Assembly: GCA_903939115.1 (NCBI GenBank)
Contig: CAJAFV010000058.1
Span: 62,001 to 126,000 of the forward strand
From: an uncultured Geobacteraceae bacterium
GTDB taxonomy: Bacteria; Desulfobacterota; Desulfuromonadia; Geobacterales; Pseudopelobacteraceae
Length of the DNA stretch: 64,000 bases
Direction: 5' to 3'
Shown piece after piece: positions 28,578 through 50,273 of this stretch (positions are counted from its first letter, which is position 1; every line of letters begins with the position of its first letter). The notes under the pieces are model-generated. The model made no database searches and was not told the origin of the DNA. It saw only the letters and a program-made list of their open reading frames with translations. The position numbers and the translations under genes are program-made.

Positions 28578-31500
28578 ATGATACGACGCAGTAACACCAT
28601 ATCCGGGACCGGCATTCGTTCCCTGCTCCGACTGGCCGCATTCGTGCTGGCGATGGCTTTTGCCTGCCAGGCCTTTGCTGCCTCGCCGGATATCGTCATC
28701 AGCCAGGTCTATGGCGGTGGCGGTAACGCCGGCGCAAACTACAAAAACGACTTCATCGAGCTGCACAACAACAGTGCCAGCGCGGTCAGCCACAACGGCT
28801 GGTCGGTACAGTATGCCTCGGCAACCGGCACATCCTGGGCGGTGACAAACCTCACCAACGTCACGCTGCAGCCGGGTCAGTACTATCTGGTTCAGGAAGC
28901 AGCCGGGGCATCCGCCACGGCTATAAACCTGCCAACACCTGACGCAACCGGCACCATCGCCATGAGCGGCACCGCTGGTAAAGTGGCGCTGGTAACCAAT
29001 CAGACCGCACTGACTGCCGTCTGTGGCGGTACCTGTGCAACCAATGCAGCCGTGCGTGACTACGTCGGCTTCGGCACGACAGCCTCCAACTTTGAAGGTG
29101 CCGGTCCGACTCCGGCGCCAAGTAACACCACCGCTGTTCTGCGCGCCGGTAACGGCTGCAGCGACACCGATAACAATAACATTGATTTCGCAGCCGGCGC
29201 TGTGAATCCGCGCAACAACGCTACAACTCTCGCTGCCTGCACCGTTACCGTCATCAACGGCTCCTGCGGCGGCGACAACGGCCTGACCCTCGCTGCGCTG
29301 GTACCAACCAACCTCTGTGGTGCCGGAACAGCTTCAGCTATCACCGGCAGCGGGCATCCCTGGGGCTGGAGCTGTGCCGGAACTGGTGGCGGAACTACCG
29401 CCTCCTGCTCGGCCGCCATCCAGAGCTACACCCTGAACTTCACCGCTGCCGCCTACGGCTCTATCAGCGGCACCTCGTTGCAGACGCTTGATTATGGGCA
29501 ATCAGCAAGCTCTGTCAGCGCAACAGCCAACTCCGGTTACTCCTTCCAGAACTGGACCATGGGAGGAACAGCTTTCTCCACCGCCAACCCGCTGACGGTC
29601 AGCAACGTCATCGTCAGCCAGAGCATCACCGCCAACTTTGTCTCTGTCTCAGCGCCTGTTAACGGCACCTGCGGCAGTGCCAACGGTTTGAGCTCCGCAG
29701 CCGCTCCGACCACAAACTTCTGCAGCGCCGGAACAGCCTCCGCAGTCACCGGCAGCGGCCCCTGGAACTGGAGCTGTACCGGTAGCAACAGCGGCAGCAG
29801 CGCCAGTTGTTCGGCACCCAAAGCATCCGGCATCATCAGCATCTTCCACGTCAACGACACCCATGCCCGCCTGACGCCGCACAAAATGGCGGCTCCGATG
29901 CACGGCACGACCAACTCCACGTTTGAAGACGTCGGTGGCGCGGCCCATATGGCCGGCAAAATGCTGGAACTGACCGCCGCCAACCCTGATTCGCTGGTGA
30001 TCGACGCCGGCGACATCTCTGAGGGGAGCCCGATCGGCGACTTCAGCGCCACCAACCCGATAGCCATCCCCGGCTTCAACATTTCCGGCTGTGCGCCGCT
30101 TTCGACCGGCGCACTCAGCAGCAACTGCGGCATGACCCAGTTCTATCAGTTGCTCTCGCAGAAACTGCAGACCCAGCGGGGCCGCGGCATGGATGCTGTC
30201 GTTGTCGGCAACCATGACGTGCGCGACGCCAGCTACATCACCAATCTTGAAAACCTGCAGGCTTCCGGAGTTCCGGTTATCTCGGTCAATGTACGCAACA
30301 TGGACGGGACACCGCACTTCAAACCCTATACCATCGTCAATGTCGCCGGAAAAAAGGTCGGCATTCTCGGCTATACCACCCAGTCCGCCGAAGTTGGCGC
30401 CTCGCTGGCCAGCACCCTCCAGGTGGTCGATTGTGACTGGAGTGCGGCAACCAATACGCTTTCAGCTGCCACAACGACATGCCACCTGAAGTCGTACGTC
30501 GATGAACTGCGGGCCGCCCCGAACAGCGTTGATCTTGTCGTACTTGCTGCCCATATCGGGCACAGCGGCATGGTTGACCCCAATCCTACTGTTTCCCCGA
30601 AACTTCTGGTTGACGACGGTGTCACCAAACTGCCGGAAGTCTCCGTCAACGGCCACTGGCACACCTGGGCTGAAACCCCCGCCTGGCAGCCGGCTGAACT
30701 CAATTACAAGACCACCATCACCGAATCCGGCAGCTACCTGACCTACATCGGTGAATTGAAGATTGACGCTGCCGGCAAATTCCTCAGCGGTTACAACCAC
30801 CTGCTGCGCACCGCCGACATTACCCCCGACCCGCAGGTGCAGAACTTCGTCAACCAGCTTATTACACAGTACGACGCCGATGCAGCCTCCAAGGGGAAGC
30901 CGAAGGCCTTTGACGTAGTCGGTTACTCTTCCGACAACCTGCTGCTTGATAATGAAATGCGCTGGTGGTCCCCCAACGAGTACCCCTGGGCCGGCAATAA
31001 TCCGGCTGGACAGTGGATCTGCGACGCCATGCAGTGGAAAGCCGCACAGCTCTTCGGCTCCTGCGATCTGGCCATCGAAACCGGCGGCGGCGTTCGCGCC
31101 GACATCCCGGCCGGCCCGGTTACCTACCTCCAGGTCTACGAGACTTTCCCCTGGAGCGACGATACCTACGTCCGGATCAACATGTCCGGCCAGGATATCC
31201 TCAACTTCCTCAAGAACACCAACATGAACGCCGGCTTTTCCCGCAGACTGCATGTGACTAGCGTGGACGGTGTGCCAACGTCAATCCTGTTTGACGGTGC
31301 CCCGATCAACCTGGGACAGACCTACACCGTTGCCATCAACAACTATATGTTCGCTCACCCGCCAGCAGGCTACACCTGGCCCGCCAACAGCACACCGCTG
31401 ACTAACGATTCCCTGGTCCGCGACAGCCTGGTGGAATTCATGCAGACCAATCATGCAACCCCGGACGCAGCCTACAGCGTCGGCGGCCCGCGCTATGACG

Positions 31501-34037
31501 TAAACACCGAGTTTGCCGGCGGTTTCCGCGCCGTAGTCACCATGATGAACGATAATGATACCCGCCCGATCTTCGATAACGCCTTCGTCCGTCTCCTCAG
31601 CGCCAACCCGGAGACTACAGCCCGTCGCGGTCAGGGGAAGGTCCCGACCGATCTGGTCACAAGCGACGGCAGCATCAATCCGGCCCATCATCTGGCCGAA
31701 GCGGAATGGTTCCGCAGCTATCTCGGTTTCAAAACCGGCGCCCTGAAAAATGGCGACATCGTTGAAATCTGGGGCAAGGGGAGCTTTTTTGACGGCAACC
31801 CGGAATTTGTCGAGCAGGAGGGGATTTACGGCCAGGGAGTTGAATTCAGGATTCTCGGCAACGACCCGAGTCTGGCCAAACCGGCCTTCAAATCCTCGAT
31901 AAACGAGTTCTGGAACGATCAACATAAAAACCACTACGTACAGTTCAAGGCAAAGAAGACCGGTGCCAGCACGGTGCAGGATCAGAACGGCCAGACCATC
32001 ACCATCAACGACCGCACCGCCTACACCAGCTACACTCTCCCCGGTGCGGTCAACGACATACTGCTGATCTCCGGTATCCCGACCATGAAGAACTTCGGAC
32101 TGGTCTTCCGTGGCGACACCGCATCCGTAGTAACCGGCGGCAGCCTGCCGGCAGCAGCATCGATTTACTCCCGCGTCAACCCGGCTCCGGCCGGCACCGA
32201 TGCCACCTCGGTCACCCTTACGGCAACCGCCTCCACCTCCTCCGGTTCCTATTTTCTGGCTCCGGTGGCTGATGCCCAGGTGGCCAGCGGCAATCCGACC
32301 ACCAACTACGGTACCAGCAACAACATCTATATCCAAAGCAGCAGCACAAGCTACGGCAACGAGCGGGGCTGGTTGAAGTTCGACCTTTCCTCCATTCCAG
32401 CCGGCGCCACCATCAACAGCGCCACCCTGCAGCTCTGGAACTGGAAATCAGCCGGCGCCTCACTTGACGCCGCAGTGTATGGCGTTACAGATGACACCTG
32501 GACCGAGACCGGCCTCACCTGGAACAGCCAGCCCGCTCTGGGCTCTGTTCTGGACACCAAAACCCTCGCAGCCGGGGCCATCAACAACTGGTATTCCTGG
32601 AACGTGACCTCCTTTGTCCAGGGTCAGTTTACCGGCGACAAGAAGGTTTCCCTGGCGGTCAAGGCCGCCACTGAAGGTTCGGCGGACGCTACCGCGCCAA
32701 GCTATGGTTTTGATGCCAAAGAGTACGGTAGCAATGCACCGCTGCTGCAGGTATCCACCGGCGCAACGGCGGCCACAATTACCCAGGTTCAGTACTTCTA
32801 CCGCTTCTCCGCCAACAATACGACCTGGGGCTCCTGGTCTTCAGCAGGAACGGCGACCGTCGCTCCCTACACCTTCTCCTTTGCGTTCCCAAGTGGCGAA
32901 GGGTATTACGAATTCTACAGCATAGCCACAGACAGCACCGGGGCTGTAACAGCAGCGCCCTCCGCCGCCCAGACCGCCACGCACTACACCTCGGCGCCGG
33001 CATATTACCCGATGGTATCCATCGATAACCTGTATCAGAAGTACAACGGCTCGGCCAAAGCGGTAACCCCGATCACCATCCCGACCGCCGCCGCTGCCAC
33101 CGCCACAGTGACCTACAACGGCCTCAGCTCCGCGCCGACCGCGCCCGGTGTCTACACCGTGGTTGCCAATGCCACTACCGGCGGCAACACCGGCACCATC
33201 AGCGGCTTCCTGGTCATCGGCAAGGGAACTCCCACCATTGCAACACTGCCAACCGCTTCCGCCATCGTCCATGGTCAAACCCTGGCTTATTCAGCCTTGA
33301 CCGGCGGCGCTGCTTCCGTTGCCGGCACCTTCGCCTTCACATCGCCCACCACGGTTCCGGCCATTGGCACCGCAAACCAGAGCGTTATCTTCACTCCATC
33401 AGACACAACCTTGTACGGAGCGGTCAGCGGCACGGTCAGTGTGACCGTCACACCGGCTGCTCCAGCCGTAACAATCTGGCCGACAGCATCCGCCATCAGC
33501 TACGGCCAGACTCTGGCCGCATCAATCCTGTCGGGCGGCGCAGCTTCCGTACCCGGAACATTCACCTTCACGACGTCAGCTACCCTCCCCGGCGTCGGCA
33601 GCGCAGCTCAGGCGGTCATCTTCACCCCGGCTGATGCTGTCAATTACAGTGTGGTTTCCGGCACGGCCACCGTGACGGTCAACCAGGCAGGACAAAACAT
33701 CGCCTTCCCGGTAATCACCGCGACTCAACTGGGCAGCGGTCCGGTAACACTGGCCGCCACTACCGATTCCGGCTTGCCGGTGTCGTACACCTCTTTAACC
33801 ACCGGCGTCTGTACGGTCACCGGTGCCACAGTCAATCTGCTGGCCGTCGGCACCTGCACCATCGCCGCCGACCAGATTGGCAATGGCAGCTACACCGCCG
33901 CTCCGCCCGTTACACAGAGTTTCACCATCACCGATGCAGTCATCGGAGCAACACCGGTACCCGCCCTCGGGCCGTGGGGAATCATGCTGGCCGTAGCCGC
34001 TCTTGGCGGCATCATGATTCGCAGACGCACCGCCTGA
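28578..34037 (+). CDS. Giant secreted lamin-tail / 5'-nucleotidase / DNRLRE / Ig-like protein
   Basis: The protein is 1819 aa. In order: signal peptide; lamin-tail domain (SQVYGGGGNAGANYKNDFIE); two copies of a Cys repeat around an InlB-like module (GTAS, ITGSG, WSC, TASC); a UshA-type metallophosphatase (FHVNDTHARL, VIDAGDISEGSP, VVGNHDV, VNGHWHTW); a 5'-nucleotidase C-terminal domain (AIETGGGVRADI); a DNRLRE-type sandwich (ERGWLKFDLSSIP); and several MBG/Ig-like repeats. The tail is VPALGPWGIMLAVAALGG then IRRRTA, an IPTL-like rather than PEP-type sorting signal. It should hydrolyse extracellular nucleotides. AAGGAG precedes the ATG. It is last in the riboswitch operon. Confidence 0.92.
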   Translation: MIRRSNTISGTGIRSLLRLAAFVLAMAFACQAFAASPDIVISQVYGGGGNAGANYKNDFIELHNNSASAVSHNGWSVQYASATGTSWAVTNLTNVTLQPGQYYLVQEAAGASATAINLPTPDATGTIAMSGTAGKVALVTNQTALTAVCGGTCATNAAVRDYVGFGTTASNFEGAGPTPAPSNTTAVLRAGNGCSDTDNNNIDFAAGAVNPRNNATTLAACTVTVINGSCGGDNGLTLAALVPTNLCGAGTASAITGSGHPWGWSCAGTGGGTTASCSAAIQSYTLNFTAAAYGSISGTSLQTLDYGQSASSVSATANSGYSFQNWTMGGTAFSTANPLTVSNVIVSQSITANFVSVSAPVNGTCGSANGLSSAAAPTTNFCSAGTASAVTGSGPWNWSCTGSNSGSSASCSAPKASGIISIFHVNDTHARLTPHKMAAPMHGTTNSTFEDVGGAAHMAGKMLELTAANPDSLVIDAGDISEGSPIGDFSATNPIAIPGFNISGCAPLSTGALSSNCGMTQFYQLLSQKLQTQRGRGMDAVVVGNHDVRDASYITNLENLQASGVPVISVNVRNMDGTPHFKPYTIVNVAGKKVGILGYTTQSAEVGASLASTLQVVDCDWSAATNTLSAATTTCHLKSYVDELRAAPNSVDLVVLAAHIGHSGMVDPNPTVSPKLLVDDGVTKLPEVSVNGHWHTWAETPAWQPAELNYKTTITESGSYLTYIGELKIDAAGKFLSGYNHLLRTADITPDPQVQNFVNQLITQYDADAASKGKPKAFDVVGYSSDNLLLDNEMRWWSPNEYPWAGNNPAGQWICDAMQWKAAQLFGSCDLAIETGGGVRADIPAGPVTYLQVYETFPWSDDTYVRINMSGQDILNFLKNTNMNAGFSRRLHVTSVDGVPTSILFDGAPINLGQTYTVAINNYMFAHPPAGYTWPANSTPLTNDSLVRDSLVEFMQTNHATPDAAYSVGGPRYDVNTEFAGGFRAVVTMMNDNDTRPIFDNAFVRLLSANPETTARRGQGKVPTDLVTSDGSINPAHHLAEAEWFRSYLGFKTGALKNGDIVEIWGKGSFFDGNPEFVEQEGIYGQGVEFRILGNDPSLAKPAFKSSINEFWNDQHKNHYVQFKAKKTGASTVQDQNGQTITINDRTAYTSYTLPGAVNDILLISGIPTMKNFGLVFRGDTASVVTGGSLPAAASIYSRVNPAPAGTDATSVTLTATASTSSGSYFLAPVADAQVASGNPTTNYGTSNNIYIQSSSTSYGNERGWLKFDLSSIPAGATINSATLQLWNWKSAGASLDAAVYGVTDDTWTETGLTWNSQPALGSVLDTKTLAAGAINNWYSWNVTSFVQGQFTGDKKVSLAVKAATEGSADATAPSYGFDAKEYGSNAPLLQVSTGATAATITQVQYFYRFSANNTTWGSWSSAGTATVAPYTFSFAFPSGEGYYEFYSIATDSTGAVTAAPSAAQTATHYTSAPAYYPMVSIDNLYQKYNGSAKAVTPITIPTAAAATATVTYNGLSSAPTAPGVYTVVANATTGGNTGTISGFLVIGKGTPTIATLPTASAIVHGQTLAYSALTGGAASVAGTFAFTSPTTVPAIGTANQSVIFTPSDTTLYGAVSGTVSVTVTPAAPAVTIWPTASAISYGQTLAASILSGGAASVPGTFTFTTSATLPGVGSAAQAVIFTPADAVNYSVVSGTATVTVNQAGQNIAFPVITATQLGSGPVTLAATTDSGLPVSYTSLTTGVCTVTGATVNLLAVGTCTIAADQIGNGSYTAAPPVTQSFTITDAVIGATPVPALGPWGIMLAVAALGGIMIRRRTA

Positions 34038-35163: not shown

Positions 35164-38100
35164 TTACCAACTCAACATCCCCAGCGATCTTTGCATAATT
35201 GCCACAACGTCAGCTATATCGATCTTGCCGTCCGGGCTTCTGGTACACGTCACCAAACCCGCCGTGTTCGACACACACCCGGTCAGTGGAGCAACATCGC
35301 CGCTGGCTATGTCGGCAGCGGTCGGTATATCCAGTCCGATGGCGAAACGCAGTGCCTTCAGAGCGTCTTGTAAATAACCTGTTGGTGTTTTGATAAACGT
35401 TGCCTCAACAGTACAGTTGTTCAGGATACCAGCGGTGCTGTAAACGGAGGTGCTACGGTTTAATGTGCCGTCACAGCCGGTGACAGTTGCGATCTGGTAG
35501 CCGCTGTCCGGAGTGATGACAAAACTGGCGGTTGCACTGGCGACGACTGTCTGGTTGGCTGCAGGAGCAATTTTGCCGTGATCGCCGGAAGTGGGGAATA
35601 CGGTGAACGTAATCGGCGGATATTCCGGCGTTGCAACGTTTGATACTGCCGATGCCGCTCCTGTTCCGGCGACATTCTTTGCCGTTACGGTAAAGGTATA
35701 TGCCTTATAGTTGGTCAGGCCTTTCACGATTATAGGGCTGGAAAGTCCAGTGCCAATGAGGCCTCCCGGCGATGAAGTTACGGTGTAGCCGGTTATTGCG
35801 CTACCGCCGGTGAAGGCCGGCGCCGTGAAAGAGACCGAAGCCTCTGCATTGCCGGCTGTTGCGGTAACGCCGGTTGGCACGCCGGGTGAAATTGCTGAAA
35901 CGGTAACAATCAGGATAACCGGTGGTGCTGCGTTATAGTTGGTGTCGCCTGCCTGATTGGCGGTAACGGTACAGGCGCCTGCGCTAACGCCGGTGATTGT
36001 TGCACCGTCATTGGTGCAGACCGTCGCAGGTGAGGAAGTAAAAACGACAGCATTGACGGACGCACCAAAGGTTGCGCTGACCGTGCCGGTACCGTTCACC
36101 ACCACCTTTGGTGCAGCTGCAAAACTAATGATCTGGTCGCCTTTGCCGGCGACAGTCAGAGTCCCGGCACTGTAGGTGATAATGTAATTGGCAGCCGAAC
36201 CACTACTAAACAGTGCCGCGCCCGGCGTAATAGCGTGGGTGCTGCCAATTGCGGCGGTCGACGTAGCTGTCGCCGCATAGCTGGACGTAACAGTGGCGAT
36301 GGTGTCGCTACCGACCAGAGCTGGAGCGGTAAAGCCGGGTGCTGCCGGGTTGGCGGCAGCGTACACCCTGCTGGCATTGGCGGCGGTTATTGTCAGAGCC
36401 TTGGCGGCTACCTGGATGGTCTTCAACATATCTGGAGCCGCTGCGTAGGTCTCATTACCCGCCTGGGTGGCTTTTACCGCGATGCTGCCGGCGCCGGTGA
36501 TAGTCAATGTGCTACCGGAAAGGGTTGCAGGACCGCTGACCAGTGTGAAGCGCACCGGCAGCAGGTTGGAACTGGCAGTAGCATTGAGAGCAATAGCCGC
36601 ATCGCCGTAGGTGGCGCTCGCAGGAGGGGAGAAGGTAACTGTCTGGCCGGTGCTGCCGGCGATGGTCAGAGTGCCGGAAATATAGGTGATACTGTAGTTG
36701 TTGGCAGCCGACACGGGGCTGAAAACTGCTGCGCTCAGCGTAATGCTGTGGGTACTGCCGAGCGCAGCGGTCGACGTAGCTGTCGTCGCGTAGCTATACG
36801 TTACGCTGGCGATGGTGTCGCTACCAACCAGAGCCGGAGCGGTAAAGCCGGGTGCTGCCGGGTTGGGGTCGCCGAACGCTCTACTGGCGTAGTCGGCCGT
36901 TACCGTCAGAGCCTTGGCGGCAACAGTGATGGTCCGCTGCACGTCCGTCGCGGCTGAGTAGCTGGTTGTCCCCGCCTGTGTGGCTTTAACTACAATACTG
37001 CCGACGCCGGTGATGGTCAAGGAGCTTCCGGTAAGCGTCGCCGGTCCACTGACGAGTGTGAAGCCTGGTGTCAGATCGGAACTGGCAGTGGCGATGAGAG
37101 CAACAGGCACATCGCCGTAGGTGGCGGTTGAAGGCGGGGTGAAAGTTATTGTTTGGCTTTTTTTAACCACAGTAATGGTCTGAGTGGCCAGAGCAGCGGC
37201 AGAATAGGTGACATTGCCTGCCTGGTTGGCTGTAACGGTGCAGGTGCCGGCGGCAACGCCGGTGATTATCGCACCGTTGCTGGTACAGACAGAAGCGGGC
37301 AACGCAGTGAAGGTTACTGCGTTGCCGGAAGCGCCGCCGGTGGCAGTGACAGTGCCGGTACCTCCAACCGTAACTGTGGGTGCAGTACCGAAAACGATGG
37401 TTTGGCCGGTCAGTCCGGAAGTATCAGCAGCTACTGTTATACTCTGAGTGACCTGAGAAGCAGCGCTGAAAGTGTCGCTACCTGACTGGTCTGCTGCTAT
37501 TGTACAGGTGCCTGCAGTTACGCCATGAACGACATCGCCGCTAACGGTACAGACGCTGGGGGTTTTAGATGTGAAGGTGACGGTGAGGGCGGAGGGTGTT
37601 GCCACGGCGCTTGCCGTGGTCGTTCCGGTAGGCGCAAGAGTTGCAGGGGTGAAGCTGATCGCGCCTATGGTCTGAGCTGTTTTAGTTGTCGGGGGGGTGA
37701 CTCCGGCAGTGGTTGTCACACTGAGGGAAGGACCCGAAGGGTCACTAGTTAGATTTGCTGCATTTTTTGCCGTGACGGTAAACGTGTAGGGAGTGCTGTT
37801 GGTCAGGCCATTAACGGTTATCGGGCTGGCTGTTCCGCTGCCGGTTATACCACCGGGGTTAGAGGTCGCCGTGTAGAGGGTTATGGCACTGCCACCGTTG
37901 GATGCCGGGGCGGTGAATGCCACCTTTGCAATACCATCACCAAATGCCGATGCTGTTCCGATTGTTGGCGCACCAGGTGCGGTTGCGGCAGCGGGCGGCG
38001 GGGAGATTGTGGTGGAACCGTCGAAGTTGGTGGTGATGGTGGCGACTATTTCTCCGATATAATCAGCGGCAACGTTTGCATAGCCATTGGCCCAAAAGTA

Positions 38101-38661
38101 CAGATTCTGGCTTACTGAGCCACTGGTTGCACCAACCAGGGTGGCCAAGCTGGTTTCAGCAGTGCCACTAACATCGAGAGCATTTGCCAGAGTTCCGGCC
38201 GGGTTAGCGGACAGCTTATTCCTGTAAGAATTAGCGGCACTCTGAGAACCGATACCGAAAGCTTGGCCGGAAGCTGTGGTCCCTTTATCGGTTTTGATGC
38301 CTGTAGTGGCGTTGTAAAAACCATACAGATTGATCGTTCCGCTACTAATTCCGGTCAGATCGCCCATGGACTGGCCGTTTTTGCTGCTTGCCCACAATTG
38401 ACCGTTGGTGCTGTCGAGAGCGAAATAGGCAACGGCCAGGTTTGCTGCAGTGCTGACCGTTGGGAGGGACCCGGCAAAGGTTCCGCCAGCAGCGAGTACA
38501 GAGGTTACGTTACCCAGGTCAGTCAGGGTTTCCGTGCTGCCGGTGGTGCGCTCATACACTACACGAATCAGTTGCAGATCTTCGAAGGTGGCGAAGGCGC
38601 TTCCTGTTATACTCAACGTGAGGGTGGAGGCAATAATGAAGGCGAACAGTTTTTTGAACAT
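35164..38661 (-). CDS. Giant surface protein with FnIII/MBG repeats and C-terminal dockerin-like region
   Basis: The protein is 1165 aa. A signal peptide (SITGSAFA) is followed by an N-terminal module of about 200 residues (LQLIRVVYERTTGSTETL) that is clearly homologous to the protein at 49433-50203. Next come FnIII units (NSTPYTFTVTAKNAANLTSD), many MBG/Ig-like repeats (ITVAAKALTVTADYASRAFG) and a final FnIII. The last 70 residues are dockerin-like: DALKALRFAIGLDIPTAADI, GDVAPLTG and PDGKIDIADVVAIMQRSLGM. It lacks a PEP-CTERM tail. AGGAG precedes the ATG and promoter block B lies upstream. It is probably held by a cohesin-like protein at the surface. Confidence 0.88.
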   Translation of the reverse strand: MFKKLFAFIIASTLTLSITGSAFATFEDLQLIRVVYERTTGSTETLTDLGNVTSVLAAGGTFAGSLPTVSTAANLAVAYFALDSTNGQLWASSKNGQSMGDLTGISSGTINLYGFYNATTGIKTDKGTTASGQAFGIGSQSAANSYRNKLSANPAGTLANALDVSGTAETSLATLVGATSGSVSQNLYFWANGYANVAADYIGEIVATITTNFDGSTTISPPPAAATAPGAPTIGTASAFGDGIAKVAFTAPASNGGSAITLYTATSNPGGITGSGTASPITVNGLTNSTPYTFTVTAKNAANLTSDPSGPSLSVTTTAGVTPPTTKTAQTIGAISFTPATLAPTGTTTASAVATPSALTVTFTSKTPSVCTVSGDVVHGVTAGTCTIAADQSGSDTFSAASQVTQSITVAADTSGLTGQTIVFGTAPTVTVGGTGTVTATGGASGNAVTFTALPASVCTSNGAIITGVAAGTCTVTANQAGNVTYSAAALATQTITVVKKSQTITFTPPSTATYGDVPVALIATASSDLTPGFTLVSGPATLTGSSLTITGVGSIVVKATQAGTTSYSAATDVQRTITVAAKALTVTADYASRAFGDPNPAAPGFTAPALVGSDTIASVTYSYATTATSTAALGSTHSITLSAAVFSPVSAANNYSITYISGTLTIAGSTGQTVTFSPPASATYGDAAIALNATASSNLLPVRFTLVSGPATLSGSTLTITGAGSIAVKATQAGNETYAAAPDMLKTIQVAAKALTITAANASRVYAAANPAAPGFTAPALVGSDTIATVTSSYAATATSTAAIGSTHAITPGAALFSSGSAANYIITYSAGTLTVAGKGDQIISFAAAPKVVVNGTGTVSATFGASVNAVVFTSSPATVCTNDGATITGVSAGACTVTANQAGDTNYNAAPPVILIVTVSAISPGVPTGVTATAGNAEASVSFTAPAFTGGSAITGYTVTSSPGGLIGTGLSSPIIVKGLTNYKAYTFTVTAKNVAGTGAASAVSNVATPEYPPITFTVFPTSGDHGKIAPAANQTVVASATASFVITPDSGYQIATVTGCDGTLNRSTSVYSTAGILNNCTVEATFIKTPTGYLQDALKALRFAIGLDIPTAADIASGDVAPLTGCVSNTAGLVTCTRSPDGKIDIADVVAIMQRSLGMLSW

Positions 38662-39601: not shown

Positions 39602-39850
39602 ATGAACATGAGATTAATATCATCCCCACAAATTTTAGGCGCGATAATCAAGGACAAAAGGAAATCCAAAAAATTAACACAAGCCCAATTGGCAGGAAAA
39701 GCAATGATTACCTCTATTGCGTTATCCCATATTGAATCTGGTCGCGATGGCACAAGACTGCACTCAATTTTAAAAATCCTTTCTGCATTAGATATGGAGC
39801 TTATGACCGGAGACAAAAGCAAAACAACGCTAAAAGGAGATGAATGGTAA
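39602..39850 (+). CDS. hipB: HipB-like XRE-family antitoxin
   Basis: The protein is 82 aa. A helix-turn-helix of the XRE type fills it: LGAIIKDKRKSKKLTQAQLA, then TSIALSHIESGRDGTRLHSI. HipB binds the operator upstream and inhibits the HipA kinase. It overlaps the hipA start by 7 bases. The pair is markedly AT-rich compared with its neighbours, consistent with transfer. Confidence 0.9.
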   Translation: MNMRLISSPQILGAIIKDKRKSKKLTQAQLAGKAMITSIALSHIESGRDGTRLHSILKILSALDMELMTGDKSKTTLKGDEW

Positions 39851-41190
39851 TGCCAAGACCAAGCAAAACAAGAAGTTTATTGGTGTTCATGAACGGCGAA
39901 GATGTTGGCAAACTAATTTCATCTCCGACAGGCGTGCTTACTTTTACCTACAGTGACAGTTGGCTTAACTCAAAAAACAAGAGATCCATATCATTATCTT
40001 TACCACTGACTGCACATGGGGTCAGCGGATATTTAGTGGATAACTTTTTTGACAACCTTCTCCCTGACAATGTGAATATAAAGAATAGAATTCAGGCAAG
40101 GTTTGGGTCTGTCAGTAATGGTTGTTTCGATTTACTATGGCATATTGGTAAAGATTGTGTAGGTGCTCTCCAGTTTTTGCGCGAGGGAGGAACACAGGGC
40201 AGTGTGAAAAAAATTGAAGCTGAGCCGGTTACTGATTCAAGCATTTCTGAAATATTACAAAATTATCAGACAATGCCGCTTGGAATGGGTAGAGATGATG
40301 ACGACTTTAGAATATCAATAGCAGGTGCTCAAGAAAAAACAGCTTTGCTTTGGCACAATAATCAGTGGTGTAAGCCAATTGGGACAACACCGACGACGCA
40401 TATAATAAAACTTCCCATAGGGGTTACAAGGAAGTTAGATTTATCTGAGAGCGTGGAAAATGAGTGGTTATGCCACTTGATACTAAAAGCATATGGGCTT
40501 GATGTTGCCAATACATCTATGCACGTGTTTGACGAAACAAAAACTTTGGTTGTTGAACGATTTGATAGAAGGCTTTCGTCAGACAAATCCTGGATAATTC
40601 GGCTCCCACAGGAAGATATGTGTCAGGCAATCGGGGTGCCCGCCCAACTTAAATACGAGCAAGATGGTGGGCCAGGCATCCAGAAAATACTTAGATTGTT
40701 GAGAGGCTCAGAAAATAACGAGCAGGATCAGTATGTTTTTATGAAAACACAATTTTTATTTTGGATACTTGCGGCAATAGATGGCCATGCAAAAAACTTT
40801 AGTGTCTTTCTTTTACCAGAAGACAGATATAAACTAACCCCATTGTATGATGTAATGTCGGCTCATCCGTATGTAAAATCGAAACAGATCCGTATTCAAA
40901 ACATAAAAATGGCTATGGCACTGGACGGCAAAGGCAGACATTACGCCTGGGAACAAATTCAGGAACGGCATTGGGCTATAACGTCTAAAAAAAATGATTT
41001 CAATGTGTTAACGATGAATCAAATTATTACTGATGTTTTCGATAATTTACAAACAGTCGTTGACTCTGTGAAGTCGTTAATTCCTCCAGGATTTCCTGAA
41101 TTGATAGCTGATTCAATTTTTAGCGGAATGTACCATTCTAAACATTATTTCAAGAGACAAGGGATTAGAATAACAAATCTCATGCGTTAG
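39844..41190 (+). CDS. hipA: HipA-family serine/threonine kinase toxin
   Basis: The protein is 448 aa. Two starts, ATG 39844 and ATG 39850, are served by AAGGAG at 39834-39839; the second has better spacing. HipA features: the N-terminal couple domain (GEDVGKLISSPTG, YLVDNFFDNLLPDN), the phosphorylatable loop region RISIAGAQEKTAL, the kinase catalytic IDGHAKNFSVF and the metal-binding LTPLYDVMSA. It typically phosphorylates an aminoacyl-tRNA synthetase to cause growth arrest. All catalytic motifs look intact. Confidence 0.93.
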   Translation: MVMPRPSKTRSLLVFMNGEDVGKLISSPTGVLTFTYSDSWLNSKNKRSISLSLPLTAHGVSGYLVDNFFDNLLPDNVNIKNRIQARFGSVSNGCFDLLWHIGKDCVGALQFLREGGTQGSVKKIEAEPVTDSSISEILQNYQTMPLGMGRDDDDFRISIAGAQEKTALLWHNNQWCKPIGTTPTTHIIKLPIGVTRKLDLSESVENEWLCHLILKAYGLDVANTSMHVFDETKTLVVERFDRRLSSDKSWIIRLPQEDMCQAIGVPAQLKYEQDGGPGIQKILRLLRGSENNEQDQYVFMKTQFLFWILAAIDGHAKNFSVFLLPEDRYKLTPLYDVMSAHPYVKSKQIRIQNIKMAMALDGKGRHYAWEQIQERHWAITSKKNDFNVLTMNQIITDVFDNLQTVVDSVKSLIPPGFPELIADSIFSGMYHSKHYFKRQGIRITNLMR

Positions 41191-41272
41191 TTACTCAGTA
41201 GCATACCCGCCTCAAAGATGTTGCTGAATCGTAACACCGCGCCGATCACTCCTGATATATACTCCCCGTTCA

Positions 41273-43270
41273 ATGCACCCCCATCAGCCGGACATACTCT
41301 TACCTCCTGTTGTTAACTCCCCCCCCTGGCTCCGTTTTGCGCTGCTCTGCACTTTGCTGCTGCTGGCGGCGGTCTGGCTGGAGCCGCATTTGGGGCCGCT
41401 CTGTCGTAGCACCGCCGCCCAGGTCGGCATACTGCTTGGCCTGGCCGGGTATGCGCCGGTGGTGCAGGGCGATCTGGTGACGCTGCCCGGATTTACTGTC
41501 CGAATCGTTACCGAATGTACGCCGCTCTATGCCTGTCTGCTCTATTGTTCATTTGTCGTGGCGCAGCCATCTGGTTGGCAGCGTACGCTGGCAGGGCTCT
41601 TTACCGGAATTCTGGTTATCAGCACAGCCAACCTGCTGCGGATTGCCTTTGTCACCGCTGCCGGTACGGTGCTCGCTCCGATTCTGTTCGATATCCTCCA
41701 TGTCTATCTCGGTCAGGTCGCCATGCTGCTGCTGGTTATCTCTGTCTGCCTGCTCTGGCTGCGCTGGAGTGCCGCTGGCCCTGCGCCGCTGCCGTTTGTG
41801 CTGCGGGCTGGTTTGATCGCCACGGCGCTGTTTCTCCCCTGGCTGCTGATCAACCGTGACTATGTCGCCCTGCTTGATTCGCTGGTGGTGCTGCTCTTCT
41901 CCTGGCTCTATCCTGGCTATCAACTGCTGACACCCCGCCCGATGCCGATCTACAATCACACCTTCGCCGTGCCGCTGCTGCTGTCACTGGTCGTGGCCGG
42001 GTGGCAACGCTGGACCCTGCGCCGTTGTGGCGCGTTGCTCGGCGGTGTCGGTCTGATTGCCGCCTGGCACGCACTGTTCCGCGTCAGTCATGTCGTCTGG
42101 ACCGCCCTGAATGTGCCGGAAATCGAGCCGCTCCATCAGGCGATCTATCTGCTCGGTCAGTTCCTGCTTCCCTTTCTGCTTTGGTTCCGGTTGGATGGCC
42201 GTTCGTTCCGACCGGAGAAGGCACACGCTGTTCCGGGCAGACCGGTTATTATCGCCATGCTGCTGGCGCTTTGCTCTGTCACAACCGCAGTGGCCGAACC
42301 GCTCATTCTGGTTCACCCCGACGGTCTTGACGGCTTTGCCATCAGTGCGGAGAATCTGAACCGGGTCAGCGAGGCGGAAATCAGCATCGCCTACCAGAGT
42401 GAAGAGGAGACACCGCCACAGGTAACCGGAGCCGGCTTGGGGGCGCAGGCCACCATAGTCGTGCAGAACGATACCCCCGGTTCGATAACCATTCGGCTCA
42501 AGAGCGGTAAGCCTTTGAGCGGTCATGTCCTGCTGGCGATGGCACAGATACAGGGAAGCGTTACTTTTCTGACCGCCTGGCTGCGTGATGAAAAAGGGAT
42601 GACTCTGACACCGCGAGTTTCCATCAAAAATCCGGGCGATGATGAGTTGCGCGCCATGTCAGAGCTGCGGCAGAAAATAATCGCTCCCGTCGCCGAACAT
42701 GCAGTCGTGCCGGCACCTGTGTCTGCCGCTCCTGCTGCCGTTGCCGTTGAATCAACTCCGGCTTCGCCTCCGGCGGGCGCGACAGTCGTTGCTACTGCAG
42801 TGGCAGATACTACCCCGCGAACCCTTGCCTTCAGCAGCCGCCCAAGTGTGCTCGATGCCTTCCGCAGCTATTCCGGTGAGCGCACACCGGCCGCCCTGGC
42901 CGGCTTGTTCGTGCGCCATGACGCCATATTTCGTCAGGAGCCGCTGTTGCTGCTTTCGGATGGCACAGCCGCACTGCACCTCACGGTTCGTGCCGGTAAC
43001 CAGTCAGAAAAGGCGCCGCAGTTTTTTATCTCCGGCGGAACCTGCACCGGCCTGAACAGTGGTGAAACTGGCGAATGGGAATTGGCGATCGTGCCGGATC
43101 GGGGCGCTCTGCTATCGACAGTTACGGTTTTGACCGGGAGTGAGATGATCGAATACCCGCTGGCAGTCGCGCCGCCGCAGGAGTTGTTTGATGGAACCAA
43201 AGCAGGGGTTGGTGAGGCGGAGTATGTTGCCGTGGCAAACCGGTTGGTGGGAGGGAATCAGAAGCCGTAG
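41273..43270 (+). CDS. Exosortase fused to a membrane extension and a periplasmic cohesin-like region
   Basis: The protein is 665 aa. Residues 1-170 are an exosortase core with the catalytic triad C82 (TECTPLY), R123 (NLLRIAF) and H143 (ILHVYLGQ). Further membrane helices follow to about 340. Residues 344-450 form a cohesin-like sandwich (HPDGLDGFAISAENLN, EISIAYQ, ITIRLKSGKPLSG, VTFLTAWLRDEKG). A Pro/Ala-rich linker (470-515) and a C-terminal beta domain follow. Exosortases cleave PEP-CTERM-type tails; the cohesin-like part could recruit dockerin-bearing substrate. No ribosome site; a -10-like TATACT at 41258-41263 suggests a very short leader. The exosortase subclass is uncertain. Confidence 0.85.
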   Translation: MHPHQPDILLPPVVNSPPWLRFALLCTLLLLAAVWLEPHLGPLCRSTAAQVGILLGLAGYAPVVQGDLVTLPGFTVRIVTECTPLYACLLYCSFVVAQPSGWQRTLAGLFTGILVISTANLLRIAFVTAAGTVLAPILFDILHVYLGQVAMLLLVISVCLLWLRWSAAGPAPLPFVLRAGLIATALFLPWLLINRDYVALLDSLVVLLFSWLYPGYQLLTPRPMPIYNHTFAVPLLLSLVVAGWQRWTLRRCGALLGGVGLIAAWHALFRVSHVVWTALNVPEIEPLHQAIYLLGQFLLPFLLWFRLDGRSFRPEKAHAVPGRPVIIAMLLALCSVTTAVAEPLILVHPDGLDGFAISAENLNRVSEAEISIAYQSEEETPPQVTGAGLGAQATIVVQNDTPGSITIRLKSGKPLSGHVLLAMAQIQGSVTFLTAWLRDEKGMTLTPRVSIKNPGDDELRAMSELRQKIIAPVAEHAVVPAPVSAAPAAVAVESTPASPPAGATVVATAVADTTPRTLAFSSRPSVLDAFRSYSGERTPAALAGLFVRHDAIFRQEPLLLLSDGTAALHLTVRAGNQSEKAPQFFISGGTCTGLNSGETGEWELAIVPDRGALLSTVTVLTGSEMIEYPLAVAPPQELFDGTKAGVGEAEYVAVANRLVGGNQKP

Positions 43271-43345
43271 GGACCCTCTGGGGCCTGAAGGCGACGCCGG
43301 TGGGTCTCCCGGTTGTAATGTGCGCCCGTTATTCTACGGGTGATT
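43271..43345. repeat. GTAGGGACCCTCTGG-type short palindromic repeat
   Basis: It begins GTAGGGACCCTCTGGGGCC and reaches GCGCCC then CTACGG, so its ends are complementary in style to the GTAGGGGC family. A related GTAGGGACCCTCTGG unit occurs at 45914-45963. It directly follows the exosortase stop and could serve as its 3' hairpin. Confidence 0.45.
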
Positions 43346-43369
43346 ATTTCTGGCGGTTTTCCCATATAT

Positions 43370-43678
43370 TTATGTGACTTTCAGTGCCCCAAACCGTAAC
43401 ACCTCAGATCCATGCAGTACCTTGATTATCCTCAGTAGTGATCCCTTCTTAACGTACACGGCAATATACGGAGTCCGTAAAATGACAAGCTCCATTGTGC
43501 CGGGTACCCTCCCCTTTTTACCACGACGGGAAACAGATACTAACATTAATGAAACTTGCTGATATATTTCATTTGTGACATATACAGCGGCTTCAATGTC
43601 ATCTCTTGAAATATATTCAAGAATCGAATCTAAGTCTGCTTCGGCCTCTGGCTCCCAAACTATAGACACACCAGGCAC
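43370..43678 (-). CDS. RelE/ParE-family toxin
   Basis: The protein is 102 aa with the RelE/ParE fold: VSIVWEPEAEADLDSILEYI, then GRVPGTMELVILRTPYIAVY and a C-terminal strand RIIKVLHGSEV. Such toxins cut ribosome-bound mRNA or poison gyrase. One base separates it from the antitoxin stop, in the usual antitoxin-first order. No catalytic lesion is evident, but the target cannot be told from sequence. Confidence 0.88.
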   Translation of the reverse strand: MPGVSIVWEPEAEADLDSILEYISRDDIEAAVYVTNEIYQQVSLMLVSVSRRGKKGRVPGTMELVILRTPYIAVYVKKGSLLRIIKVLHGSEVLRFGALKVT

Positions 43679-43679
43679 G

Positions 43680-43997
43680 TTAGGCCGCCTTTTTAAGAAG
43701 AAGAGCTGCCTGCTTAGATTTCAGCCGCGTACCAACGTCCTCATGCGAAGCCGAAATCCTAGCCGGCTGATTCACTTTTGCCAGAACAGCTTCAACTTGC
43801 TCTTTAAACCAATGATCGTGCTCAGAAGCAGCAGTTGCATTAAGCTTCAATTCAAAAGGTAAGCCCTTTACAATATTAACCTGACGGATAAAGAGACGAA
43901 CCGCCTCGCTCATTGTGAGGCCAAGATTTTTAAAAATCGACTCACACTCAAGTTTTTCTAGTTCGTCAACACGAGCTCTAATAATGGTTTCTGACAT
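43680..43997 (-). CDS. RelB/DinJ-family antitoxin
   Basis: The protein is 105 aa from ATG 43997, with GGAGGTGA at good distance; an ATG 15 bases earlier overlaps that site. The RHH opening is SETIIRARVDELEKLECESI, then LGLTMSEAVRLFIRQVNIVK, typical of RelB/DinJ. The tail should wrap the toxin. It represses through the palindrome at 44025-44040. Confidence 0.88.
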   Translation of the reverse strand: MSETIIRARVDELEKLECESIFKNLGLTMSEAVRLFIRQVNIVKGLPFELKLNATAASEHDHWFKEQVEAVLAKVNQPARISASHEDVGTRLKSKQAALLLKKAA

Positions 43998-44024
43998 GAG
44001 TATCACCTCCATGATATTGTAGCC

Positions 44025-44040
44025 TATTGTAGCTACAATA
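44025..44040 (-). promoter_or_regulatory. RelB operator palindrome
   Basis: TATTGTAGCTACAATA is a perfect 16-bp palindrome 28 bases upstream of the antitoxin start. A third half-site ATTGTAG lies next to it at 44016-44022. It is the expected autoregulatory operator of this RHH antitoxin. Confidence 0.7.
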
Positions 44041-44127
44041 AATCATCTTCGCAACTCAATTCGTACTGAATTTGAAGTTGAAGAAGCTAATGAAATTATT
44101 ATCGGATCCATATTTTTAGGGCTGTTT

Positions 44128-44252
44128 GTAGGGGCGCTGCGTGCCGCGCCCGCCTTTACGCCTTTAGATATTGTTTTTCAGGGAGAGAGAATGCGAGTAC
44201 AGGAGTGATATATTGGGAAATAGGCAACAACAAAAGCCTGACCCCGCTGGCA
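44128..44252. repeat. Intergenic repeat units between TA pairs
   Basis: GTAGGGGCGCTGCGTGCCGC at 44129 is a half-element that recurs at 45773 and 46887, always followed by GCCCGCCTTT. AATAGGCAACAACAAAAGCC at 44218-44237 followed by TGACCCCGCTGG recurs near 45029, 45719 and 45963. No gene is seen from 44041 to 44346. Confidence 0.6.
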
Positions 44253-44346
44253 CCCAACACTAATATAGAACATAAGTTGCTGACTTTTCTTTGCGCCTTT
44301 GCGCGAGTGAATTGCCGTATTTAGGTAATGCGAGGAATGTTCCTAA

Positions 44347-44652
44347 TTATCCCTGTAACATGCGTTTGCTCTGATGTGTCGGAGCTTCAACAAGCCGTCC
44401 GTTGACATATTTATGAAGTATACTGGCTATCAGCGTCTGGTACGGCATTCCCTGCTCGGCGGCCCTTGTTTGAACATCCTCAAGATCCCTCGAAGAAAGA
44501 CGAATATTGATCCTTTTATCTTTAAGGAGTGCAGCGGCAGCATTTGATGCGTAACGGTCGATGTCATTCTTTAAATTGGCGATTGGACTCCATTCTCCTT
44601 TTTCGAAGGATGTCAGGACCTCCTTCTCATACGTTTTTTCTTCAGTTTTCAT
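44347..44652 (-). CDS. CopG/BrnA-like antitoxin
   Basis: The protein is 101 aa from ATG 44652, 8 bases from GGAGGG; the longer frame lacks a site. A ribbon-helix-helix is present: KDKRINIRLSSRDLEDVQTR, then QGMPYQTLIASILHKYVNGR. It pairs with the toxin gene ending 1 base upstream, in toxin-first order as in BrnTA systems. It should bind the operator in front of the toxin. Confidence 0.82.
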   Translation of the reverse strand: MKTEEKTYEKEVLTSFEKGEWSPIANLKNDIDRYASNAAAALLKDKRINIRLSSRDLEDVQTRAAEQGMPYQTLIASILHKYVNGRLVEAPTHQSKRMLQG

Positions 44653-44653
44653 G

Positions 44654-44932
44654 TTAAGATCCCTCCGACAGATATTTTTTAGCAGCAACCCGGCTTGGAA
44701 TAATTGTCTTTAAAAACAGCTCGTTGTCAGTCTCTACGAAAGGGACCAGATACACGTAATTCCGAATTCGAACAATAAAAAGTCTCTGGTTTGAATATTT
44801 TAAACTGTTTGGATGCGAAACCACATCAAGAAGACCACCATGCGACATGGCTGCCAGAACTTCCTCAAAAGAAACATCACGCTCCAATTTAAGCTGGATG
44901 TTCTTCTCTGTATTCCAGTTGAATGTCTTCAT
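44654..44932 (-). CDS. BrnT-like toxin (RelE superfamily)
   Basis: The protein is 92 aa. The BrnT-type start is FNWNTEKNIQLKLERDVSFE, then HPNSLKYSNQRLFIVRIRNY and the tail FLKTIIPSRVAAKKYL, where basic residues could be catalytic. The ATG lies 6 bases after a predicted -10, with no ribosome site, so it is probably read from a leaderless mRNA. It is a ribonuclease toxin by family resemblance. Confidence 0.75.
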   Translation of the reverse strand: MKTFNWNTEKNIQLKLERDVSFEEVLAAMSHGGLLDVVSHPNSLKYSNQRLFIVRIRNYVYLVPFVETDNELFLKTIIPSRVAAKKYLSEGS

Positions 44933-44938
44933 AAAGCC

Positions 44939-44967
44939 AACATACCTAAAAGTATGCCTTTTGTCAT
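44939..44967 (-). promoter_or_regulatory. Leaderless promoter of the BrnT-like pair
   Basis: On the minus strand ATGACA, 17-base spacer and TATGTT lie 6 bases before the toxin ATG. The inverted repeat CATAC-CTAAAA-GTATG (44941-44956) overlaps the -10 and is a likely antitoxin operator. Confidence 0.6.
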
Positions 44968-45091
44968 CATGATTTATTCTAAAAAAACCAGTTTACGTCC
45001 CCCCAGGTGATATCCGTTTGGTTCCCCCTATAATAGGCAACAGCAAAAGCCTGACCCCGCTGGTTTTAGTTGTTGGAGAGGCCCCCCTTTT

Positions 45092-45355
45092 TCACCCCTT
45101 TAGGACATAGCGACGTTCTGGGTTACTTTTGATCTCATTGTACATTGTATCAGGAGCGAGATCCAACCCATTTGGCCAGGTAACGACACCGTTATCAACT
45201 CTCGCTTGCCGTACCAGGTCATCATCTAACAACGCCTTAAACACCCCGGAGCAAAATGAACTGTCTATTACAATAAGACCGCTCAAACCGTCATCAAATT
45301 TCACTCTAAACTCACGCGGGTTTTCCGTTTTTACCTCGATGACATCCCAATACAT
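45092..45355 (-). CDS. DUF2442-domain protein (putative TA partner)
   Basis: The protein is 87 aa with the DUF2442 layout: YWDVIEVKTENPREFRVKFD, LIVIDSSFCSGVF, then GVVTWPNGLDLAPDTMYNEI. DUF2442 genes are commonly paired with DUF4160 genes, as here, and are suspected TA modules. It follows the DUF4160 gene by 20 bases. No biochemical role is established that I can cite. Confidence 0.82.
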   Translation of the reverse strand: MYWDVIEVKTENPREFRVKFDDGLSGLIVIDSSFCSGVFKALLDDDLVRQARVDNGVVTWPNGLDLAPDTMYNEIKSNPERRYVLKG

Positions 45356-45375
45356 ATAGGCTTCCTTATCACTGC

Positions 45376-45636
45376 TTATTTAAGTGGTGAAATTTCTTTA
45401 GGTTGCTGTTTTGCCATACAGAGGTCCCAGTCCTCCAGCAACTCATCCTGGTGTAACTCTGCCCAGTCTAAAACAAGTTCGGTGGCCCTTCTGGGGAGCC
45501 TTCCCACGATAATTTGCAATGCGCGAATATCAACGGTGGCTTTATATTCACCATATGTAGCATGGCAATGAGGAGGCGCGTGTTCATCCCAAAACATTTG
45601 AACCATAATCCCATAAAACATACTAATTGTCGGCAT
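45376..45636 (-). CDS. DUF4160-domain protein (putative TA partner)
   Basis: The protein is 86 aa from ATG 45636 with GAGG 7 bases upstream. It has the DUF4160 core MPTISMFYGIMVQMFWDEHA, PPHCHATYGEYKATVDI and LDWAELHQDELLEDW. The His/Asp/Glu-rich FWDEHAPPHCHA could bind metal or be catalytic. It is the first gene of a two-gene unit with DUF2442. Confidence 0.85.
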   Translation of the reverse strand: MPTISMFYGIMVQMFWDEHAPPHCHATYGEYKATVDIRALQIIVGRLPRRATELVLDWAELHQDELLEDWDLCMAKQQPKEISPLK

Positions 45637-45713
45637 GTTCAACCTCTTTGTAACAACGAAACTTGGAATCAAAATACCCCATAACCGCTCTTATGTCAAA
45701 TTGAGTTCCATTT

Positions 45714-46000
45714 ACTCGAATAGGCAATTACAACAGCCTGACCCCGCTGGTTTCCTCAGGTGATATTGAATTCGTAGGGGCGCTGCGTGCCGCGCCCGCC
45801 TTTTGATGTGCTTCGCTCAGGTGACAGGTGACAGGTGAATAGCAAGTTAGCAAGCAACGTCCCCCCAGGTGATAACGGTATTATCGTGCTTCGCCAAGGT
45901 GACAGTGAATTTGGTAGGGACCCTCTGGTGCCTAAAGGCGCACCGATGTGCGCCCAGTTTTTTAGGCAACAACAAAAGCCTGACCCCCGTTTGGTTCTGA
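45714..46000. repeat. Cluster of short intergenic repeats
   Basis: It holds two copies of the AATAGGCAA...AGCCTGACCCC unit (45719 and about 45963), one GTAGGGGCGCTGCGTGCCGC half-element (45776), an AACGTCCCCCCAGGTGATA unit (45857) also seen near 44996, and GTAGGGACCCTCTGG (45916). No convincing gene is present from 45637 to 46056. Confidence 0.6.
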
Positions 46001-46056
46001 ATTTTTCCGGGTACTTCAGAACCGGTCCAATTCCAATTCCGAAAAGCAACCGGCCA

Positions 46057-46320
46057 TTATGCTGCTTTCTTCAATTCTTCGCGGAGTACCTGCCTGATTA
46101 CCTCTTCAATCGGTTTTTGCGGTTCAAATTGTTTGCGCAGCAATTCATTTAATACCGTCTGATACCCTTTATTTTCAGATTCTCCACGTGCCTTCAGAAG
46201 TTCCAGCACGTCTGCGTCAAGATACGTGGTTATCCTGACTTTGTTAGGGTTCGGAATGACAGCGCCGCGTTTGCCTTTACTGAAATCATACACTGCTCTC
46301 ATGTCAGGATCAGTTACCAT
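46057..46320 (-). CDS. brnA: BrnA-family antitoxin (toxin partner broken)
   Basis: The protein is 87 aa. BrnA layout: RRGA-type RGAVIPNPNKVRITTYLDAD followed by ENKGYQTVLNELLRKQF, an RHH fold that binds DNA and wraps BrnT. It ends REELKKAA like the intact copy at 51262. It overlaps the toxin reading frame by 11 bases. The gene looks intact although its toxin has a frameshift. Confidence 0.88.
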   Translation of the reverse strand: MVTDPDMRAVYDFSKGKRGAVIPNPNKVRITTYLDADVLELLKARGESENKGYQTVLNELLRKQFEPQKPIEEVIRQVLREELKKAA

Positions 46321-46577: not shown

Positions 46578-46583
46578 GGTTCA

Positions 46584-46612: not shown

Positions 46613-46693
46613 CAAATTTGCCGTCTATAAAATAAAAACGGAATAGATTTGATTTTTTCGTTAACGCTGAGGCGCTTCGACATTCAGCAGCGT

Positions 46694-49432: not shown

Positions 49433-50203
49433 TTACGCTACTTTATTCTTACGACGCAGTCCGAACATGCCGAGCAGGCCGGAACCCATCAAGAAGAAAG
49501 CTGGTGGGATTGGGGTTGCGGCGGTGACGACACTGGTACCGTTAAAGTTTGTTGTAATGGTAAAATTATTAACACCGGTATAATCAGCGGGATCGTTGGC
49601 GTAACCATTGGCCCAGAAGTACAGATTCTGTGTTACCGAACCACTGGTAGCGCCGACCAAGCTGCCCAGGCTGGTTTCAGCGCTGCCTGCGAGAGGTAAT
49701 GCATTACCCAGTGTACCGGCTTGTCCAGATGCGGACAGTTTTTTCACGTAGGAACTTGCGGCACTCTGTACACCGATACCATAAGCTTGACCGGTAGCGG
49801 TAGTTCCTTGAGTGGTTTTAATGCCTGTGGTGGCGTTGTAATAGCTGTACAGACTGATCGTTCCGCTACTCATTCCGGTCAGATCGCCCATGGACTGGCC
49901 GTTTTTGCTGGTTGACCATAATTGACCGTTGGTGCTGTCGAGGGCGAAATAGGCAACGGCCAGGTTTGCCGGTGTGGTTGCAGTGAGGGCGCCTGTGCCG
50001 GCAAATGTCTGTGCACCCTTTGTAGTAGCGTCATTTAGAATGGTGTTTACATTACCCAAGTCAGTAAGGGTTTCGGTGGAACCTGTACCGCGCTCATACA
50101 CAACACGGATCAGTTCGAGGTCAGTAAAAGCTGCGAAAGCGCTGCTGGCGGAGAGGGTCATAAGTGCTGCGGCGATAAGCATAACAATTTTTTTCTTAAA
50201 CAT
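49433..50203 (-). CDS. PEP-CTERM surface protein, paralogue of the dockerin protein N-terminus
   Basis: The protein is 256 aa from ATG 50203 with AAGGAG upstream. Signal peptide (LSASSAFA), then a module of about 200 residues starting LELIRVVYERGTGSTETL and including VAYFALDSTNGQLWSTSKNG. It is clearly homologous to residues 25-220 of the 1165-aa protein at 35164. It ends with the sorting signal TPIPPAFFLMGSGLLG then RRKNKVA. Function unknown. It is first behind GEMM riboswitch 2 and is followed by the PstS-like gene. Confidence 0.88.
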   Translation of the reverse strand: MFKKKIVMLIAAALMTLSASSAFAAFTDLELIRVVYERGTGSTETLTDLGNVNTILNDATTKGAQTFAGTGALTATTPANLAVAYFALDSTNGQLWSTSKNGQSMGDLTGMSSGTISLYSYYNATTGIKTTQGTTATGQAYGIGVQSAASSYVKKLSASGQAGTLGNALPLAGSAETSLGSLVGATSGSVTQNLYFWANGYANDPADYTGVNNFTITTNFNGTSVVTAATPIPPAFFLMGSGLLGMFGLRRKNKVA

Positions 50204-50273
50204 TTGAATCTCCTTTTCTTCCATTTTTTAGAGTGTGAAATTGGTGGTATCTACGCTTCCTTCTCAATTTCCC

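Follow-up and report, generated by a model that had tools for sequence, protein, structure and literature searches.

A conserved open reading frame joins an exosortase-H-like enzyme to a predicted cohesin-fold protein in Geobacterales

The window analysed here, a whole stretch of 64,000 nucleotides from an uncultured Geobacteraceae bacterium, contains an open reading frame in which an exosortase core is joined to a domain with a predicted cohesin fold (Table 1). This fusion is real and conserved and, as far as our searches reach, undescribed. We suggest, giving the proposal an even chance of being correct, that the frame encodes a polyprotein that gives rise to a dedicated exosortase and a secreted dockerin receptor. 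Residues 1-312 would constitute the exosortase-H-like enzyme together with a fused partner membrane protein, and the internal signal peptide (approximately 311-341) would direct residues 342-665 to the periplasm, with signal peptidase I probably cutting after A341 to leave equal amounts of enzyme and secreted cohesin/Ig-like protein. The enzyme could then process an IPTL-CTERM protein whose gene lies at a distance of 7 kb. The cohesin protein may capture dockerin-tailed exoproteins, for example one encoded nearby, and pass or hold them on the export or surface route, as relatives encoded beside type II-like genes may also do.

Table 1. Features of the fused reading frame and of neighbouring genes, in window positions.
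Feature	Position	Strand	Evidence
Probable dedicated exosortase substrate, 1819 aa, IPTL-CTERM tail at 33957-34028	28578..34037	+	26.6 bits against a cut-off of 20.5
Dockerin-tailed 1165-aa protein, tail at about 35167-35391, candidate cohesin ligand	35164..38661	-	Tail 51% identical to the L044 tail
Fused ORF, 665 aa	41273..43270	+	One frame in 31 aligned proteins including the window's own
Exosortase core, residues 15-168 (C82, R123, H143)	41315..41776	+	TIGR04178 37 bits, TIGR04177 84.1 bits; catalytic residues in 31/31 and 73/73
Second membrane half, residues 169-312, without Cys at the C82 place, R270 invariant	41777..42208	+	
Internal signal peptide, residues about 311-341: basic segment, hydrophobic 325-336, A339-V340-A341	42203..42295	+	
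Cohesin-fold domain, residues 342-460	42296..42652	+	Predicted fold; homologue above the Pfam Cohesin cut-off
Helix and Pro/Ala-rich disordered linker, residues 461-515	42653..42817	+	pLDDT 37-51 over about 471-510
C-terminal Ig-like 'ct' domain and terminal helix, residues 516-661	42818..43255	+	
PEP-CTERM-like 263-aa protein, exodomain like the N-terminus of the dockerin protein	49433..50224	-	

A search of 5.8 billion proteins returned 33 matches to the fused protein, its own included. Alignment A1, which leaves out P0019 and P0023, holds 31 of these, and the 30 relatives in it are 35-88% identical to the window protein. An assembly artefact was considered and rejected, as the fusion is present in many contigs. 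Within the order, a single frame runs over both halves of the fusion in three of 141 genomes (G000, the window's own, G065 and G082), and others have two separate genes; in G023 the exosortase gene adjoins the cohesin-protein gene on one strand and their longest frames overlap by 26 bp. Searching genome contigs with the single fused protein gave one locus. In a phylogeny of exosortase parts, 30 of them fused and 43 standalone (73 in all, leaving out P0013, P0019, P0023, P0033 and standalone rows shorter than 290 aa), the fused rows are grouped, and at least five fusion or split changes are needed. The outermost lineages are standalone, with a midpoint root that serves for drawing only and some rows that come from short contigs. 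One fusion followed by several splits would be the simplest history, if not a proven one. In a sample of 297 genomes from the phylum the fused form was not found outside the order, though two-half and one-half exosortases do occur there.

Two observations concern the surroundings of the gene and its history. Compared with the syntenic locus in G082 (L044:9341-11326), positions 41273-43270 are approximately 79% identical in DNA at both ends and shortly past them, with no BLASTN match between, and amino acid identity of the two fused proteins is 0.78 over the first 40 residues, 0.68 over the last 40 and 0.17-0.55 inside. It looks as if the inner part of the gene was perhaps replaced by recombination. 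The fused gene is also flanked by toxin-antitoxin-like small gene pairs (window 39602-47612), among which are HipA, recognised by domain matches and accompanied by a hipB-like frame, as well as pairs of RelE/ParE-like, BrnT-like and other kinds recognised by eye only.

NCBIfam places the exosortase core at residues 24-166. The exosortase/archaeosortase signature TIGR04178 scores 37 bits against a cut-off of 23, and the Cys, Arg and His are conserved in all 73 rows. The exosortase H model, TIGR04177, scores 84.1 bits against a cut-off of 86 (113.9 in the relative at L047), and we therefore call the enzyme exosortase-H-like only. Pfam gave no domain in the fused protein (P0001) at E<=1; a protein database nonetheless lists PF09721. 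The genome contains four exosortase matches and a single IPTL-CTERM protein was found in it, encoded at 28578-34037, 7 kb from the exosortase; this protein has no dockerin match at E<=1. Twelve genomes have such an exosortase, and an IPTL-CTERM match was found in eight of them (six above the cut-off; one each, with two in G071) and in none of the other four. In six of the eight (G000, G051, G071, G075, G082 and G123) no more than 8 kb separate it from the exosortase; in G053 it is on another contig and in G065 about 64 kb off. A rhombosortase with a single target is treated as a dedicated system in excerpts of PMC3237569. The single IPTL-CTERM target here points to a dedicated system in that sense, and the 28578-34037 protein is the probable substrate of the fused exosortase.

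The second membrane half has no Cys at the place of C82, and Y227 and R270 are invariant in all 73 rows; no NCBIfam family was found for it at E<=10. Seven one-half exosortase-H-like loci were found in the phylum outside the class, of which six were examined (G267 being the exception). In those six, and in L003 of the window's own genome, the next gene lies on the same strand, overlaps and encodes a short hydrophobic-looking protein. A profile of the second half detects this downstream gene in four of the seven, well in L003 and L085 and partly in L087 and L088, and gives no match to it in L086, L089 and L090. This likeness makes a fused partner protein the best reading of the second half. It is also plausible, short of demonstrated, that it is a duplicated, Cys-less exosortase half: in hhalign the two halves (73 rows) align collinearly with a score of 27.8, compared with a maximum of 21.2 in 40 column shuffles and 10.1 when reversed, at a probability of 27.6%, and an earlier hhalign run paired other helices than expected. 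L003 (G000:C28:18751-22008) is in itself a second small exosortase system, in which a substrate-like protein ending VPVMDGIWMLPGVLAGLGLFARRRKE, an exosortase (a 202-codon frame) and the overlapping partner-like membrane protein are encoded in a row.

The AlphaFold2 model of the fused protein, made with 72 aligned sequences (alignment A2 comprises 72 of 94 sequences), has a mean pLDDT of 86.6 and a pTM of 0.60; a second structure model is weaker (pLDDT 73.1). Helices are predicted at residues 18-35, 41-57, 85-97, 102-131 and 136-167 in the first half and at 173-212, 228-242, 249-277 and 282-308 in the second, followed by a short helix at 323-334. The presumed secreted part consists of a beta domain at 344-451, disorder at about 475-513 and a second beta domain at 519-630. 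By predicted structure and fold comparison residues 342-460 have a cohesin fold, with low identity to solved cohesins (3-19% in cohesin rows). P0001 has no match to Pfam Cohesin (PF00963) at E<=1 and its homologue at L053 passes at 24.9 against 24.1 bits. A PDB sequence search with P0001 gave nothing at E<=10, and one with the cohesin-family profile A4 gave no cohesin and one T-cell-receptor chain at E 0.21. The cohesin/Ig-like family is present in 107 of 141 genomes of the order (E<=1e-10), and the Ig-like 'ct' domain also occurs in type II-secretion-linked proteins of the order.

Much of the layout proposed in an earlier note, made from the sequence alone, is borne out by these results. It had described an intact exosortase core with C82, R123 and H143, which are invariant in 31 of 31 proteins, in one 665-residue frame with a cohesin-like sandwich at 344-450, where the beta domain at 344-451 indeed has a predicted cohesin fold and not an unrelated one. 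Its Pro/Ala linker and further beta domain agree with the low pLDDT at about 471-510 and the beta domain at 519-630, and the phylogenomic check that it proposed finds the fusion in 30 aligned relatives and many contigs, not limited to this assembly. The extra membrane helices that it listed are present, and can now be corrected to the likeness of a small membrane protein encoded separately downstream of exosortase-H-like genes.

The junction between the two parts is central to our reading. The last helix is followed by a stretch of basic character, GRSFRPEK in the window, and then by a brief run of hydrophobic residues that leads to A-V-A and E-P. Standalone cohesin proteins carry the aligned segment at their N-terminus, as their signal peptide. 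Judged from the sequence rather than by a dedicated predictor, the junction has the basic n-region, short hydrophobic stretch and small residues at -3 and -1 of a type I signal peptide. Across the 31 aligned proteins position 339 is Ala in 27 and Ser in four, and position 341 is Ala in 28, Gly in two and Ser in one; A-x-A occurs at these positions in 24 and [AS]-x-[AGS] in all 31. No other column pair of the 663 has the latter pattern in 31 proteins, the next reaching 30 (residue 562) and the one after that 20. This fixed-column count is preferred to a count of A-x-A anywhere in the 27-residue stretch (29/31), which overstates the junction. In AlphaFold2 the pLDDT falls below 50 at residues 335-339. 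In 23 of the 31 proteins the segment that links the last helix to the hydrophobic stretch contains no Met (in eight it has one), and a separate ATG start is therefore unavailable to those 23, although a GTG or TTG start might serve. The conserved small residues and the segment shared with standalone N-termini make cleavage by signal peptidase I likely, and the fused chain probably ends up as two pieces instead of an enzyme with a built-in cohesin. The pieces would have calculated masses of 37.4 kDa (residues 1-341) and 33.7 kDa (342-665), compared with 71.1 kDa for the intact chain. The cohesin part is probably released, because the junction lines up with the signal peptide of the standalone cohesin proteins. 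The fbcH precursor of Bradyrhizobium provides a precedent for an internal signal peptide.

A candidate ligand for the released protein is encoded nearby. The 35164-38661 protein has a dockerin-like tail at its end and no CTERM, which makes it a less than obvious substrate for an exosortase. The window tail has no match to PF00404; its relative in the syntenic locus of G082 passes (24.5 against 22.9 bits). A PDB search with the dockerin profile A3 returned two dockerin chains, weakly (E about 0.08). Dockerin tails of the window type are found in 100 of 141 genomes of the order. Among the matches listed, 18 of 150 dockerin rows have a cohesin-family row within 10 kb, 15 of the 18 on the same strand, against 1.1 expected (approximately 16-fold) from even placement in 4.2 Mb, where kinship between genomes and contig ends are ignored; model A3 was built from three tails already adjoining cohesin genes, and the count without ranks 1-6 (those three tails and three genomes of the genus of G116) is 12 of 144 among the matches listed. 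The dockerin gene is on the opposite strand to the fused ORF, 7.3 kb off in G000 and 4.9 kb in G082, and in G065, the third fused genome, no dockerin row lies near among the matches listed.

The dockerin protein is 67% identical to the 49433-50224 protein over the first 220 residues and 64% over 245. By this similarity, one exodomain carries either a CTERM-type or a dockerin tail within one locus. Similar exodomain pairs occur in L038, L042 and L044, where one copy carries a CTERM-type tail and the other belongs to a large protein. This large partner has a dockerin end in L044; in L038 its frame runs into the contig end just as a dockerin begins, and in L042 it is cut before the tail. The large-frame partner in L040 ends otherwise. 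As the PEP-CTERM-like tail is not of the IPTL type, another of the four exosortase matches in the genome may process the 49433-50224 protein. Seen by eye, a PstS-like secreted protein (an identity given by a weak match, for the window copy only) and a PEP-CTERM-like protein recur as a pair near exosortase/cohesin genes, in the window (47951-50224) and in L036, L038, L040, L042 and L043.

Part of the cohesin family is encoded near type II-like secretion genes. Among the matches listed, 38 of 148 cohesin-family rows have a type II-like secretin within 12 kb, against 0.86 expected under the same even placement in 4.2 Mb, kinship and contig ends again ignored; for G000 and G065 the 148 rows omit the second piece of the fused ORF, and a second piece in G040 is left out of the secretin list. 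None of the three fused ORFs (G000, G065 and G082), and none of the nearest standalone relatives (G071 C13, G075 C14, G123 C160 and G023 C43), lies within 12 kb of a secretin, and thus the secretion link runs through more distant members of the family. In nine of 20 neighbourhoods, chosen from long contigs, secretin, pseudopilins and cohesin protein are encoded on one strand. The secretin at L051:8828-11320, the only one tested for domains (others were matched as whole proteins), has TPR and secretin domains and a C-terminal Pfam Cohesin (42.3 bits), which would equip the secretion pore with a dockerin receptor. Five of the 20 (L062, L065, L067, L072 and L073) also encode a giant multicopper-oxidase-like protein nearby, as do L052 and L053; it is dockerin-tailed in L053, L072 and L073. 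In Geobacter, the multicopper oxidase OmpB is paired with Oxp, an atypical type II system.

Other explanations have to be weighed against a cleaved polyprotein. The earlier note suggested that the built-in cohesin recruits dockerin-tagged substrates, that is, that the chain stays whole and its tethered cohesin brings them to the exosortase. The part of this reading that stands is an exosortase and a cohesin fold in one conserved ORF, and the single conserved chain and the dockerin gene nearby would suit recruitment as well. Recruitment is made doubtful, however, by the signal-peptidase-like site conserved at the junction, by a dockerin neighbour without a CTERM tail and an IPTL-CTERM protein without a dockerin match, and by the occurrence of the two parts as separate genes in many relatives, and we consider it quite improbable. 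A functionless merger within an operon, in which two co-transcribed surface-protein genes lost the stop that separated them and both products are restored by the internal signal peptide, could account for the adjoining, overlapping genes of G023 and for the five or more fusion or split changes on the tree; the retention of the fused form down to 35% identity argues against it, and it seems very unlikely.

It is also conceivable, if on balance doubtful, that the cohesin-fold domain binds a secretion component or a glycan rather than dockerins, and that the closeness of dockerin genes reflects a general clustering of genes for surface proteins. The 3-19% identity to solved cohesins, the richness of these loci in surface proteins and the bias of the dockerin model are consistent with this, whereas dockerin adjacency at about 16 times chance, with 15 of 18 rows on the same strand among the matches listed, and a secretin of the same order that carries a cohesin too, favour a dockerin receptor. 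If the domain is such a receptor, CTERM and dockerin tails might be two versions of a tag that feed one outer-membrane exit, formed by an atypical type II system whose secretin is tipped with a cohesin, and the fused gene might couple both tag receptors in a fixed ratio. We offer this only tentatively. If true, it would explain how an exosortase-treated protein crosses the outer membrane, and the natural fusion of an exosortase with a family encoded in part beside type II-like secretion genes is a testable candidate for the exit route.

Excerpts of the founding exosortase paper (PMC1569441) consider an unknown periplasmic acceptor and possible passage of the outer membrane, and leave exit from the periplasm open. 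The portions of the literature on exosortases and type II secretion considered here gave no answer as to how exosortase-treated proteins leave the periplasm, and those on exosortases and cohesins, which concern methanotrophic archaea, contain no such fusion. The view of the earlier note that an exosortase-cohesin fusion is not known to have been described is in keeping with the literature searched.

Among known systems, the closest likeness is to exosortase H and IPTL-CTERM (TIGR04177 and TIGR04174), with which the window protein shares the core model, the Cys-Arg-His residues and a single IPTL-CTERM protein nearby. The exosortase H model spans 158 positions, whereas the window protein continues past the core with a further membrane half and then with the signal peptide, the cohesin and the Ig-like domain. 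Unlike non-cellulosomal cohesin-dockerin pairs, such as that of the Archaeoglobus cohesin 2xdh, there is a lone cohesin behind an exosortase and the window dockerin is degenerate; such pairs gain from this a possible role in protein sorting. Rhombosortase/GlyGly-CTERM and myxosortase/MYXO-CTERM resemble the present system in that C-terminal tags are processed at the inner membrane. According to excerpts of PMC11980579, GlyGly-CTERM and MYXO-CTERM proteins both need the T2SS to cross the outer membrane, and those of PMC3237569 note only a general co-occurrence with the T2SS. The enzymes are unrelated, however, and in our case only some members of the cohesin family suggest a T2SS link. EpsH has been found fused to CAAX-protease-like domains, and the excerpts of PMC1569441 read that fusion as a functional hint; the partner there is a membrane protease-like domain, whereas here it is a secreted cohesin protein.
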